Positions 24,086 through 28,004 of a stretch of DNA of 38,554 nucleotides are shown piece after piece (positions within the stretch are counted from its first letter, which is position 1; every line of letters begins with the position of its first letter). The stretch lies in assembly GCA_002869925.2 (NCBI GenBank), contig NEWT02000011.1:1-38554 (forward strand). Reading direction: 5' to 3'. The stretch is from Nitrospira sp. CG24A (GTDB lineage Bacteria > Nitrospirota > Nitrospiria > Nitrospirales > Nitrospiraceae). The translations under genes and the position numbers were made by a program. The notes under the pieces are model-generated. The model saw only the letters and a list, made by a program, of their open reading frames with translations, ran no database searches and was not told where the DNA came from.

Positions 24086-25129
24086 ATGAAAATATGGACG
24101 CTCATTGTTGCGGCGATTTTCTGTCTCAGCTTCTCCGGCTGTTTCGAGAGAGTTGTCGAACCAGAGGATGTGTTTGGCGTTATCCGGCGTGGAGAAACAT
24201 ATAGTCCGGCATCGAAGATGATCGATAGCTGGTATGCGGTCGAGGCAATTGACACCCAGACCTTTGCGATCAACGAACCAAAATCGTCACAGTATAATAC
24301 GTCCTATTTGATCATCGGCGACGAGCGGGCCGTGATGTTTGATGCGGGCAGCAGTGAGCGCCCCGCAGGATCTAAGTCAATGCGGCAGGTGGCCGCTCTG
24401 TACACCGATAAACCTATCACGCTGATCCTATCACATTTCCATTATGACCACATCTATGATGCATCGAAGTTTGAAACCGGGGTGACGCTGATAGACCGGC
24501 CAGAAATCCGAGCCGGGGCCACGAATGGGCGATACACGATCAGCGCGTTGGAGTCGGTCGATGCGGAAGCCCTACCGCTGAAGGTGGCCGGATTCATTGC
24601 TGATGGTGACGTGATCGACCTTGGTCATCGCACGCTCGATGTGTTGAACCTGCCCGGACATACCACAGAATCGATTGTGCTGATCGACGGGGCACGCAAC
24701 CAGACCTTCACAGGCGATTTTACCTACAAACATCTGGGCGGTATCATCGCCTTTGCCCCGGCATCGGATCTTCTTTCATACAAGGCGAATAGCGACCGGC
24801 TGCTGCAATTGACCAATATCGATATGCAGTTTTTCGGAGCGCACGGCATTCCTCGCTTCGGACGTGACTGGGTTTCCCTCATGTCCATCGAGCTTGGCAA
24901 GATCGTCAGGGGCAAGCCGGATTATCGTTATGTCGCCCACTACTTAGCTCCAGGCCTTCCGGTGCGGCTTCAGCAGAATGAGGACATGTACATCTACACC
25001 ACGCCGCTCGTGGATCCGCCACTGTTCTGGTCGAAATGGACGCTGCTGCTGGTGGTAGTCTTCGGTGCGTTGGTGTTTTACTTAATCTATCGCGTTGCCC
25101 GGCCGCTCTTTGTCGCGGCTAGAGGCTGA
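24086..25129 (+). CDS. Metallo-beta-lactamase-fold lipoprotein
   Basis: A 347-residue exported hydrolase. The N-terminus has a lipoprotein signal: IVAAIFCLSFSGC with the lipidated Cys19. The metallo-beta-lactamase domain (about 55-260) has SHFHYDH (His117, His119, Asp121, His122), LPGHTTES (His192), GDF (Asp211) and GAHG (His253), so a complete two-metal site. A C-terminal membrane helix (318-336) is unusual for a lipoprotein. The substrate is unknown. AGGGAG lies six bases before the ATG at 24086. The next genes also encode exported proteins. Confidence 0.85.
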   Translation: MKIWTLIVAAIFCLSFSGCFERVVEPEDVFGVIRRGETYSPASKMIDSWYAVEAIDTQTFAINEPKSSQYNTSYLIIGDERAVMFDAGSSERPAGSKSMRQVAALYTDKPITLILSHFHYDHIYDASKFETGVTLIDRPEIRAGATNGRYTISALESVDAEALPLKVAGFIADGDVIDLGHRTLDVLNLPGHTTESIVLIDGARNQTFTGDFTYKHLGGIIAFAPASDLLSYKANSDRLLQLTNIDMQFFGAHGIPRFGRDWVSLMSIELGKIVRGKPDYRYVAHYLAPGLPVRLQQNEDMYIYTTPLVDPPLFWSKWTLLLVVVFGALVFYLIYRVARPLFVAARG

Positions 25130-25323
25130 TATTGACACTACGATCCGGTCCCGAGCTTTGCATCGGATGGGCCGCCTTGACACTCAAAAAATTAGCTTGT
25201 TATAGTCGGCGGGTCTCTTGCTTTATGCTGCTCTCCTCGCTTTTCCTTTCTGAGTCCGGCGCGACGGTTTCTGTGCCACGTGGATGGCGGTCGTATGTTT
25301 TCTTGCATGATAAAGGTTTATTT
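25130..25323. other. Leader region upstream of the IPT/TIG gene
   Basis: The frame of the next gene is open back to 25132, but translation from there would place about 64 residues before a good signal peptide, so I treat this as noncoding. No clear promoter or hairpin was seen. Confidence 0.4.
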
Positions 25324-27006
25324 ATGAAGGCGTTTGTCACTGGCGCAGGCACATTGATCCTATGGGCAAGCCTGACTGTTTCCGTGGTTGCGGCGACCCC
25401 TTCCGCGATCGAGCTACACCCATCAACGGCGGTCTCTGGTGCCACGGTCTCGATTGGTGGGAAGGGGTTCGGTACATTTCGATCCGTGCACGTCAATCGC
25501 GTGACTGTCAGTGGGGTCCCTGCATTGATTCAACGATGGGAGCCCGACCTGATCGAGGTGAAGGTTCCCTTCCAGGCTCAATCCGGCCCCGTTGAAGTCA
25601 TGGCCGGAAAAAAGAAGAGGGCTGCCGGAACGTTGACAGTGGTACAGCCGACGATTACGGCTATCACGCCAGCAGAAATCGAGCCAGGGCATACCTTGCA
25701 GATTACCGGTGCAAACTTCGGCGTCACGGCCGGCCCGCGCGATCCCAATACGATGTTCGGAGTCAACGATGTGATGATCGGAAGCGTCGTCATGAGACCA
25801 CGCCGTTGGAAAGACAATATCATCGAAGTCGAGGTTCCCACCAACGCGATGTCGGGCGAGGTAGTGGTTCGATTGGCTTCGTCGGATCCCTTGCCGGACG
25901 GTTCCTGTTGTGCTCCGGTCCAGTACAAGGTGAGCAATGCCGTTCCGCTGAAGTTGATTCCGAGCATTCGCGTCGATCCGGTGAGCGGGCCGGTCGGCAC
26001 GAAGGTCGTCTTCTTCGGCCAAGGTTTCGGCGCCGAGAAGGGAGTCGGTGACAAGGTGACGTTCGGGGGGCACCTCGCCACAATCGCGCAGTGGTCCGAC
26101 AGCGCGATTGTCGTACATCTTCCAATGGATGCGGACACTGGGCCTATCGTCCTGACCATGCAGGGACGTGAGCGTACGGTTGGAGTCTTTACGGTTCATG
26201 TGCCAAAAGTCATTGCCTTGACGCCTCCGGCCGCTCCGATCGGTACGTTGCTCAGAATCAGCGGGGAACATTTCGGGTTCTACTCTGAAAGTGGATCGAC
26301 ACCCTATGCCTTTACGGACTTCAATATAGGAGAGAATCGAGTCGATATCGGCGGGGTCCGCGCCATTATCTATCGTTGGCAAGACGATCGGATCGATGTG
26401 TGGGTGCCGTTTAGTGCGAAAACTGGCCCAGTTGTGATCTATCGAGGCGCAACGAAGCCCAATCCTGACGGGACATGTTGCGCGACGAAGGACACCCTCC
26501 AGACTGAAGCGGGGGCATTTACGGTGGTGATGCCGCAGATCGATTCCTATAGCCCGCAATCGGGGGGACTCGATGAACTGATTAGCATCAAAGGGACGGG
26601 GTTCGGCTCGTTCTTGAAGACCGCTGAGCATGCCTACCTCGGTCTCAATCAGGGGGCCTACAAGCGACGGGAGGATATTGAGTTGGGCGAAAATGTTTCG
26701 CGCACGGAAGTGCTGTTCAGCAACATTGCGGCGCAAGTCATGTCCTGGACGGATACGGAGATTGTCGTGCGAGTGCCTCATCGCCACCTGTACGGTCTGG
26801 GGAAGCGCAATGAGTTCTTCAATGAGCTGGCGACTGGTCCTTTGGTTGTGCGGCGCGGTTCCTGGGATGTGCAGCCGGATGGATCTTGCTGTACTCCAAA
26901 AAAATGGCTGTCAATGGAAGCAGGCACCTTCACCATTGAAGCCAAGGGTATGCCGGATCCTGGCTACTTCAATACAAACCGCCCGGACGCCGACACCAAC
27001 CAGTGA
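25324..27006 (+). CDS. Exported IPT/TIG-repeat protein
   Basis: A 560-residue exported protein. The signal peptide is MKAFVTGAGTLILWASLTV with cleavage near VVAA. The rest is five immunoglobulin-like IPT/TIG domains at about 26-107, 108-206, 213-293, 294-402 and 403-539, each with a G-x-x-G-x-G-F-G segment and a W-x-x-x-x-I-x-V-x-V/L-P strand. Domains 2, 4 and 5 carry a vicinal cysteine motif PDG(S/T)CC at residues 191-196, 381-386 and 518-523, which may form disulfides or bind metal. It probably acts as a surface scaffold. The ATG at 25324 has AAAGG eight bases upstream. Its stop overlaps the start of the propeller gene (GTGA). Confidence 0.85.
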   Translation: MKAFVTGAGTLILWASLTVSVVAATPSAIELHPSTAVSGATVSIGGKGFGTFRSVHVNRVTVSGVPALIQRWEPDLIEVKVPFQAQSGPVEVMAGKKKRAAGTLTVVQPTITAITPAEIEPGHTLQITGANFGVTAGPRDPNTMFGVNDVMIGSVVMRPRRWKDNIIEVEVPTNAMSGEVVVRLASSDPLPDGSCCAPVQYKVSNAVPLKLIPSIRVDPVSGPVGTKVVFFGQGFGAEKGVGDKVTFGGHLATIAQWSDSAIVVHLPMDADTGPIVLTMQGRERTVGVFTVHVPKVIALTPPAAPIGTLLRISGEHFGFYSESGSTPYAFTDFNIGENRVDIGGVRAIIYRWQDDRIDVWVPFSAKTGPVVIYRGATKPNPDGTCCATKDTLQTEAGAFTVVMPQIDSYSPQSGGLDELISIKGTGFGSFLKTAEHAYLGLNQGAYKRREDIELGENVSRTEVLFSNIAAQVMSWTDTEIVVRVPHRHLYGLGKRNEFFNELATGPLVVRRGSWDVQPDGSCCTPKKWLSMEAGTFTIEAKGMPDPGYFNTNRPDADTNQ

Positions 27007-28004
27007 GAGACGGATTGCACGGATCACGACGAGGGCTCTCGCTGTTCCGCGCGGGATGTCTTGCGCTCGTCACGCTGATGCCGTTGTTGTGTACGTCTCC
27101 CTCGTGGGCTGCCGACTCTTCTCTCACGATCACTCCTCAAACAAGCCATACGGAAGCCCTCCTAATGGGGATCTATTTTCATCGGGCCGAGCAGGGTTGG
27201 GCGGTCGGGTCTGGCGGCACTATTCTGAAAACGGTCGATGGCGGAAAGAAGTGGAAGAAGATCGCCAGCGGCACCACGGCCAGTCTATCAGCCGTCTTCT
27301 TTTTCGACGAGAAGCAGGGTTGGGCGGTTGGAGCCAATGGGACGATTCTCCGGAGCCAGGATGGAGGGAATACCTGGCATCAGCAACTCGTCGAGACACA
27401 AGTATCGTTCTATGGCCTTTCGTTTGTATCGGCGAGTGAGGGATGGGTGGTGGGTGGTAACGGAACGATTCTTCATACGAAGGATGGCGGGATCCACTGG
27501 CTCGATCAAGCGAGCAAGACGAGTGCAGCTCTCTATGGCGTACAATTTCTGAGCGCGCGTCATGGAACAATCGTCGGAGCGGTGGGGACCGTCTTGATGA
27601 CGGATGATGGTGGAGCCACCTGGATCGCACAAGAGATGCAGAGTGCTGCCACGCTGTTCGATGTCTATTTCACGGACGTATCGACTGGTTGGGCAGTCGG
27701 GAACGCCGGTGCCATTTTTCACACGACCACCGGTGGTGCTCAATGGATCGATCGTACGTTGCCTTGCGCACGCACCTGTACGAAGTTGACGGATCTGTTG
27801 CGCGTGCGCTTTACCGACCCTCAGACCGGATGGATAGTAGGGGAACGGGGCATGGCCTATCGGACGACCGATGGTGGCTTTACCTGGACAGAACAGGGTG
27901 CGATGACAAAAGTCTCATTATTCGGTCTGTCGTTTCCCGATGAAACACAAGGCTGGGCCAGCGGAGAACAGGGCACGATCGTTCGGCTGACCATCGGCCA
28001 CTGA
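27003..28004 (+). CDS. Ycf48-like seven-bladed beta-propeller, exported
   Basis: A 333-residue protein with a signal peptide (cleavage near PSWA, residue 36). It has seven repeats of the form GWAVGxxGTIL-x-T-x-DGG-x-x-W. This is the pattern of the Ycf48/HCF136 family, which in cyanobacteria assists photosystem II assembly; in non-photosynthetic bacteria the role is unknown and may be chaperoning of an exported complex. The fourth blade (HGTIVGAVGT) and seventh (ending in IGH) are divergent. The start is GTG overlapping the upstream stop as GTGA, which implies coupling with the IPT/TIG protein; a TTG at 27015 is an alternative. Confidence 0.85.
   Translation: MRDGLHGSRRGLSLFRAGCLALVTLMPLLCTSPSWAADSSLTITPQTSHTEALLMGIYFHRAEQGWAVGSGGTILKTVDGGKKWKKIASGTTASLSAVFFFDEKQGWAVGANGTILRSQDGGNTWHQQLVETQVSFYGLSFVSASEGWVVGGNGTILHTKDGGIHWLDQASKTSAALYGVQFLSARHGTIVGAVGTVLMTDDGGATWIAQEMQSAATLFDVYFTDVSTGWAVGNAGAIFHTTTGGAQWIDRTLPCARTCTKLTDLLRVRFTDPQTGWIVGERGMAYRTTDGGFTWTEQGAMTKVSLFGLSFPDETQGWASGEQGTIVRLTIGH

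Follow-up and report, generated by a model that had tools for sequence, protein, structure and literature searches.

Two adjacent genes in a Nitrospira genome encode exported proteins that occur as a pair throughout the lineage, with strikingly constant cysteines; an earlier sequence-only reading had wrongly drawn them as a trio with a third gene. The window, which is the whole stretch of 38,554 nucleotides analysed, is contig 3 (NEWT02000011.1) of Nitrospira sp. CG24A, whose assembly has 3.36 Mb in 40 contigs and is 95% complete. The first protein of the pair carries five IPT/TIG domains and the second is a propeller related to the photosystem II factor Ycf48. The pair is tentatively explained as a core module of the nitrite-oxidizing Nitrospirales, in which it would be a periplasmic assembly/protection pair for a metal-cofactor complex, most likely nitrite oxidoreductase (NXR) or a complex acquired with NXR. 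The features of the pair are as follows.

25324..27006, + strand: gene for the predicted exported five-IPT/TIG-domain protein with three PDG[S/T]CC hairpins (560 amino acids; signal peptide at about residues 1-24, read by eye)
25894..25911, + strand: first PDGSCC, residues 191-196, in IPT domain 2 (C195 and C196 kept in 136/136 relatives)
26464..26481, + strand: second PDGTCC, residues 381-386, in IPT domain 4 (C385 and C386 kept in 136/136)
26875..26892, + strand: third PDGSCC, residues 518-523, in IPT domain 5 (C522 and C523 kept in 136/136)
27003..28004, + strand: gene for the predicted exported Ycf48-like seven-bladed propeller (333 amino acids; signal peptide at about residues 1-37, read by eye)
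27765..27779, + strand: C255-x3-C259, in the loop between propeller repeats 5 and 6 (found in 119/122 distinct relatives)

The pairing was followed in a family survey of 147 genomes, 109 of which are of high quality. Matches to the IPT protein were found in 138 of them (105 of the 109 high-quality ones) and matches to the propeller in 145. The propeller matches are only weak in G003, G020, G027, G044 and G117, and 140 genomes were counted. Of the 138 genomes having both, 137 have the propeller gene next after the IPT gene and on the same strand, with a match-to-match distance of at most 518 bases. The sole exception, G095, has IPT and propeller fragments on separate contigs. The linkage of the cysteine-bearing IPT architecture to a Ycf48-like protein thus holds almost without exception. 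The pair is intact in the f2 and f3 loci examined, where IPT identity is 41-56% (f1 to f4 are labels for families within the order Nitrospirales), and it is retained in genomes of about 1.7 Mb (G006 and G063). In some genomes of genus g6 one or both flanks are altered and the pair still stays together (L054, L073, L074, L075).

No IPT match was found in nine of the 147 genomes. In G078 the contig ends 124 bases past the propeller gene. The usual next gene, rsmE, was searched in the other eight and was also absent in G020, G026, G003, G044 and G118; the joint absence of rsmE and the pair fits assembly gaps. G094 has a propeller fragment adjoining rsmE. In G117 and G027 rsmE is present and the pair was not found in the stretch read, for which a loss, a move and a gap are all possible.

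The IPT and propeller proteins belong to known families. As far as searched, their pairing and the IPT architecture with Cys-Cys hairpins are undescribed: no description of the pair was found in the open-access papers searched for Ycf48, IPT or TIG with Nitrospira or nitrite oxidation. The accessible part of PMC8510549 deals with a Ycf48-like gene of another organism, and that of the proteome paper PMC8115632 holds nothing on IPT or propeller proteins.

The two genes are joined by a four-nucleotide overlap, GTGA at 27003-27006, which links the IPT stop codon to the start of the propeller gene as the sequence-only reading had noted. The overlap also occurs in many relatives, and the genes are probably co-translated. 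The IPT reading frame is open upstream as far as 25132. Close relatives align from the ATG at 25324, ahead of a normal-looking signal peptide, and this ATG is the most likely start judging from the alignment. The export of both proteins is predicted from signal-peptide-like N-termini read by eye.

The first protein scores 105.9 bits against a gathering score of 20.9 for PF01833 (TIG, E 1e-30) in five stretches. The motif PDG(S/T)CC appears three times, in domains 2, 4 and 5, at an equivalent place in each, just as had been read from the window. The mature protein has exactly six cysteines, all in the three Cys-Cys pairs, an arrangement that came up 0 times when six cysteines were placed at random 200,000 times. 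All six are kept in 136/136 distinct IPT proteins (at least 480 amino acids long, with identical rows and shorter pieces left out), including f3 proteins at 41-42% identity. In 135 of the 136 there is no further cysteine after residue 35, and L178 has three extra ones near the N-terminus. The PDG ahead of the pair is variable (NIGGLCC, LENGRCC and others). Therefore, the Cys-Cys pair and not PDG is the constant element. Besides the three pairs, many loop residues are invariant. When the five domains are aligned, domains 2, 4 and 5 have two added elements in common that domains 1 and 3 do not have: a loop following the GFG turn, and the stretch with the cysteines. Compared with IPT/TIG-domain proteins in general (PF01833), the likeness lies in the five TIG domains and in a fold like the IPT domains of plexin and CGTase; the difference lies in the added loop and PDGxCC hairpin of these three domains.

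A selenocysteine at the motif was considered and rejected. One in-frame TGA had been flagged in the IPT frames of G055, G098, G038 and G015. At these loci (L056, L057, L052 and L058) the matched stretch is stop-free with the Cys-Cys pairs intact and ends near query residues 555-557, so that the TGA is most simply read as the stop codon of a protein that is a little shorter.

Structure prediction, which the sequence-only reading had proposed for the IPT-propeller pair, was carried out on single chains with AlphaFold. The IPT model has a mean local confidence score (pLDDT) of 78.6 and a global one (pTM) of 0.61, with several loops of low confidence, and each Cys-Cys pair lies hairpin-like between two strands. 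The simplest expectation for these adjacent cysteines is a vicinal disulfide, given an oxidising periplasm. The best fold matches of the model are plexin IPT stretches, CGTase IPT domains match as well, and S-layer proteins are among the weaker Foldseek matches. Such matches of a predicted model say nothing of function.

A tandem IPT/Ig rod with these fold matches is also what would be expected of a structural envelope module. The rod would then be a periplasmic or surface scaffold (a lattice, a spacer or an anchoring fibre), the hairpins would cross-link rods, and the propeller would be a partner or cap. Neither protein has an enzyme domain above a curated cut-off in Pfam or NCBIfam, in agreement with such a role. 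Furthermore, a second full IPT copy is present in eight of the 147 genomes, in none of them with a propeller gene beside it, which suggests that the rod can act alone. On the other hand, the invariant cysteine pairs and loop residues are stricter than expected of a surface lattice protein, and two adjacent cysteines per hairpin suit an internal vicinal disulfide equally well. Overall, a structural envelope role is possible and nearly as likely as the assembly/protection role.

The second copies stand at loci L059, L061, L062, L063, L102, L107, L137 and L142. Several are near DabA, Mur-ligase-like, Sua5, AIR-carboxylase-like, PAPS-reductase-like and isocitrate-dehydrogenase-like genes, which were called with Pfam for ten proteins of L059, L061 and L063 and named by likeness elsewhere.

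The fixed cysteines could also handle metal or haem: the hairpins would take up Cu(I) or a different soft metal and deliver it to a metalloprotein of the periplasm. The three invariant pairs and the C-x3-C loop of the propeller would suit this. However, two neighbouring cysteines on their own bind one small metal ion poorly, and no His or Met cluster was seen by eye beside the pairs in the alignment. In addition, C-x3-C is missing, with a gap at its place, in the three f3 propellers inspected, though the f3 IPT proteins keep all their Cys-Cys pairs. Metal handling is therefore improbable.

The second protein scores 137.1 bits against a gathering score of 27 for Pfam PSII_BNR (PF14870; E 1e-39). 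The IPT/TIG protein and the Ycf48-like propeller of the sequence-only reading, both predicted to be exported, are borne out. A profile search with the propeller finds the Ycf48 and HCF136 structures (8am5 chain S, E 2e-35). Seven repeats can be counted by eye from G65W66 to G317W318, and the AlphaFold model has a pLDDT of 89.2. The first row of the fold comparison is the seven-bladed design 7big (Z 33.0, 2.1 Å over 278 residues). No Ycf48 chain is among the 50 rows listed; these rows lie within Z 2 of each other, and a missing row is no evidence. The propeller is related to Ycf48 in fold and in sequence family, and it is the sequence that carries the family relation. Against the NCBIfam Ycf48 equivalog NF010237 the protein reaches 152.9 bits, below the cut-off of 326.

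Ycf48 of Synechocystis contacts photosystem II through a patch of arginines, R180, R196, R215, R219, R220 and R237 (PMC10403576, in the part available). In the profile alignment to 8am5_S none of these six positions is Arg in the window propeller. In the pairwise alignment to 2xbg, R257 falls opposite one patch arginine, and of 122 relatives only 36 have Arg at this position. A shift of register separates the two alignments, which can happen with repeat proteins. The nearby K261 is Lys or Arg in 119 of the 122. Taken together, the window propeller resembles Ycf48/HCF136 (PF14870, PDB 2XBG, 8AM5) in sequence family, seven-repeat propeller and signal-peptide-like N-terminus; it differs in the C-x3-C loop, the IPT companion, the unrecognisable arginine patch and a score far under the NCBIfam cut-off. 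Thus the earlier comparison with Ycf48 stands for fold and family.

The distribution of the pair was determined in a phylum survey of 395 genomes, 252 of which lie outside the order Nitrospirales. The IPT profile matches 143 of the 395 at E 1e-10 or better: 107/110 in f1, 27/27 in f2, 3/3 in f3 and 0/3 in f4. The remaining six matches, in other families of the class, are weak (E 8e-15 to 2e-11) and are taken as generic IPT. Strong IPT matches are therefore found only in three Nitrospirales families, which are those with Nitrospira-type NXR. Beyond the phylum, a pattern-based contig scan was done. The best 80 of its 143 IPT relatives are titled Nitrospira, Nitrospiraceae, Nitrospirae or Nitrospirota, bar one ('uncultured Nitrosospira sp. 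isolate CMX'), and the closest named match among them is Nitrospira sp. RSF6 at 96%. The propeller search at 1e-15 gives 183/395 genomes (108/110 in f1, all of f2 and f3, and 3/3 in f4 with E 1e-31 to 1e-46), and 42 of the 252 genomes outside the order have a match. Therefore, a propeller of this type is not specific by itself.

NxrA, whole or in part, is present in 102/110 genomes of f1, 26/27 of f2, 3/3 of f3 and 0/3 of f4. The search was done at E 1e-100, and a follow-up on 23 genomes was added because the first search scored at most two candidates per genome. Among the 20 f1 and f2 genomes without a first-search match, 11 carry short nxrA pieces and nine show none. The only NxrA match of G090, at 43% identity, was left out of the count. 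Many of the short pieces lie at the first bases of a contig (G005, G002, G019, G326 and others), so an absence of NXR is unreliable in such drafts. The IPT protein is present in 128 of the 131 Nitrospirales genomes with NXR evidence, the rest being G078, where the contig ends, G020 and G117.

According to the available part of PMC12342949, NXR is lacking from a single Nitrospirales family, UBA2166, and the deepest clade to have it is NS-4; f4 presumably corresponds to UBA2166 and f3 to NS-4. In the same part, Kop et al. (2025) describe 140 genes that most of the NXR-bearing Nitrospirales have kept. The taxonomic span of the pair is similar to that of this set, with the NXR-bearing families having it and the NXR-less family lacking it. 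The pair may be listed among the 140 genes, and the main text, as far as available, mentions no TIG, Ycf48 or propeller.

The neighbourhood of the pair is a housekeeping one, with gene names taken from reading translations and not from family searches. The usual order is alaS, (ruvX), mltG, (deoC, deoB), RidA, IPT and propeller, then the convergent rsmE, dnaJ, dnaK and grpE. This order can be made out in f1 and f2 and, in part, in f3. Such a setting would suit a pair with a general housekeeping role in the envelope, which originated a single time in the forebear of the NXR-bearing families and is unrelated to nitrite oxidation. The distribution fits such a single origin, and Ycf48-like matches also occur in f4 and outside the order, as counted above. 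Against it stand the restriction of the IPT partner to NXR-bearing families and the retention of the pair in the small genomes of about 1.7 Mb. We consider a housekeeping role somewhat unlikely.

In some f1 and f2 genomes a gene for a conserved HEAT-repeat protein of about 260-320 amino acids with a signal-like N-terminus lies between RidA and the IPT gene, as in the following loci.

L191:4542-5450: HEAT-repeat protein gene
L037:4819-5772: HEAT-repeat protein gene
L182:7289-8065: HEAT-repeat protein gene

At the same place in an f2 genome, L180:7218-10109 holds three tandem, mutually similar exported genes for proteins of 303-324 amino acids, which look outer-membrane-barrel-like by eye. In the window the HEAT-repeat gene is missing and its position is occupied by the third gene of the supposed trio, a metallo-beta-lactamase (MBL)-fold gene.

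24086..25129, + strand: MBL-fold lipoprotein-like gene, a bystander outside the conserved pair (match in 21/147 genomes, beside the pair in 3)

The identity of this gene was read correctly. It has an LSFSGC box and HxHxDH, both seen by eye, and it scores 53 bits against a PF00753 gathering score of 22.7 (Lactamase_B, E 5.5e-14). It falls below the NCBIfam equivalog cut-offs for subclass B3 beta-lactamase (32.5 vs 240 bits) and PQQ relay hydrolase 2 (45 vs 280 bits). On the plus strand the order is MBL gene, IPT gene and propeller gene. The gene had been placed just upstream of the IPT gene. With the most likely start at ATG 25324 the two are 194 bases apart, and just upstream does not mean co-translated with the IPT gene.

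All three genes could form one envelope system, and the same order in the window and two relatives would agree with this. The MBL gene adjoins the IPT gene only in G000, G079 and G054, and the copy of G079 carries an in-frame TGA. However, 126 of the 147 genomes have no MBL match at all, and in 18 of the 21 that do, the gene is elsewhere. At four such loci that were read, an ABC transporter (ATPase and MacB/FtsX-type permease) adjoins it, and two of them also have a GDSL-type lipase gene. The transporter calls come from Pfam for one ATPase and two permeases and from likeness for the others.

L233:17406-18518: MBL gene beside ABC transporter
L234:925-1992: MBL gene beside ABC transporter
L235:6323-7405: MBL gene beside ABC transporter
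L236:2149-3279: MBL gene beside ABC transporter

Eight genomes were compared for the distance of the MBL gene to nxrA, and in six of them it is 12.7 to 13.5 kb. A three-gene system is hardly credible, and the MBL gene is an unrelated neighbour and bystander to the pair. Conservation in related genomes was what the sequence-only reading had put at stake: the three-gene order is not conserved, whereas the two-gene order and the cysteine motif are.

We return to the assembly/protection reading. Four things can be read from the sequences themselves: that the genes are paired, how the domains are laid out, that the cysteines are fixed, and that the pair is restricted to families with Nitrospira-type NXR. 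Export and the periplasmic assembly/protection work of the pair are inferred. This reading is invited by a Ycf48-like propeller and a fixed-cysteine rod, both with export signals, in NXR-bearing bacteria. The earlier suggestion of an envelope assembly or surface system is thus retained as the best guess for the IPT-propeller pair, without the MBL protein, because the pair has export signals, is found in nearly all members of the lineage and does not go beyond the Nitrospira-type NXR families. In photosystem II, Ycf48 shields the Mn site as long as the complex is unfinished (PMC10403576, in the part available). By analogy, the propeller would keep hold of a partner that is not yet mature, in the way Ycf48 holds D1 ahead of Mn loading, and the five-domain IPT rod would serve as a scaffold. 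The Cys-Cys tips, probably oxidised to vicinal disulfides, would provide rigid contact surfaces or redox switches. A narrower proposal is a dedicated periplasmic biogenesis/protection machine for Nitrospira-type NXR, in which the propeller would hold the immature metalloenzyme and the Cys-Cys hairpins would be a redox or folding checkpoint. It is unlikely in this specific form.

Several points weigh against the assembly/protection reading. The distribution in the NXR-bearing families may go back to one origin, in which case shared ancestry would be enough to account for it. No nxr gene was seen in the usual housekeeping neighbourhood of the pair. In G020 and G117 NXR is present and the pair was not found. 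Sixteen genomes of other families match NxrA more distantly (E 1e-220 to 1e-276) without an IPT match; full-length Nitrospirales NxrA matches score E 0 among the matches listed. The second IPT copies stand without a propeller gene, and the arginine patch of Ycf48 is, by these alignments, not recognisable rather than disproved.

Other candidates connected with NXR were considered. NITMOv2_2496, a conserved exported protein, is among the most expressed genes of N. moscoviensis together with nxrA, nxrB and nxrC (PMC6606698, in the part available). It is probably not the same gene as the IPT gene, which lies at 2,309,027-2,310,733 on the minus strand in N. moscoviensis, with the propeller gene at 2,308,035-2,309,027: a rough, unproven scaling of locus tags puts 2496 about 45 kb off, and the bacterioferritin anchor NITMOv2_2541 sought for placing it was not found. 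NXR-T of anammox bacteria is likewise an NXR-linked accessory protein and was rejected as a relative, since it is a haem-bearing four-helix bundle and not an IPT rod or propeller (available part of PMC8387239). The TorD-like NXR chaperone is also a proposed NXR assembly helper (available parts of PMC6606698 and PMC12342949).

Nitrite oxidation yields virtually all nitrate in nature (PMC8387239, in the part available). The Nitrospirales are widespread nitrite oxidizers, and the assembly of their periplasm-facing NXR is poorly known. The pair is a concrete candidate for NXR assembly or for an envelope structure peculiar to the Nitrospirales. The Nitrospirales are not known to be phototrophs. If the pair has either of these roles, the Ycf48 propeller would be at work in a setting beyond photosystem II.

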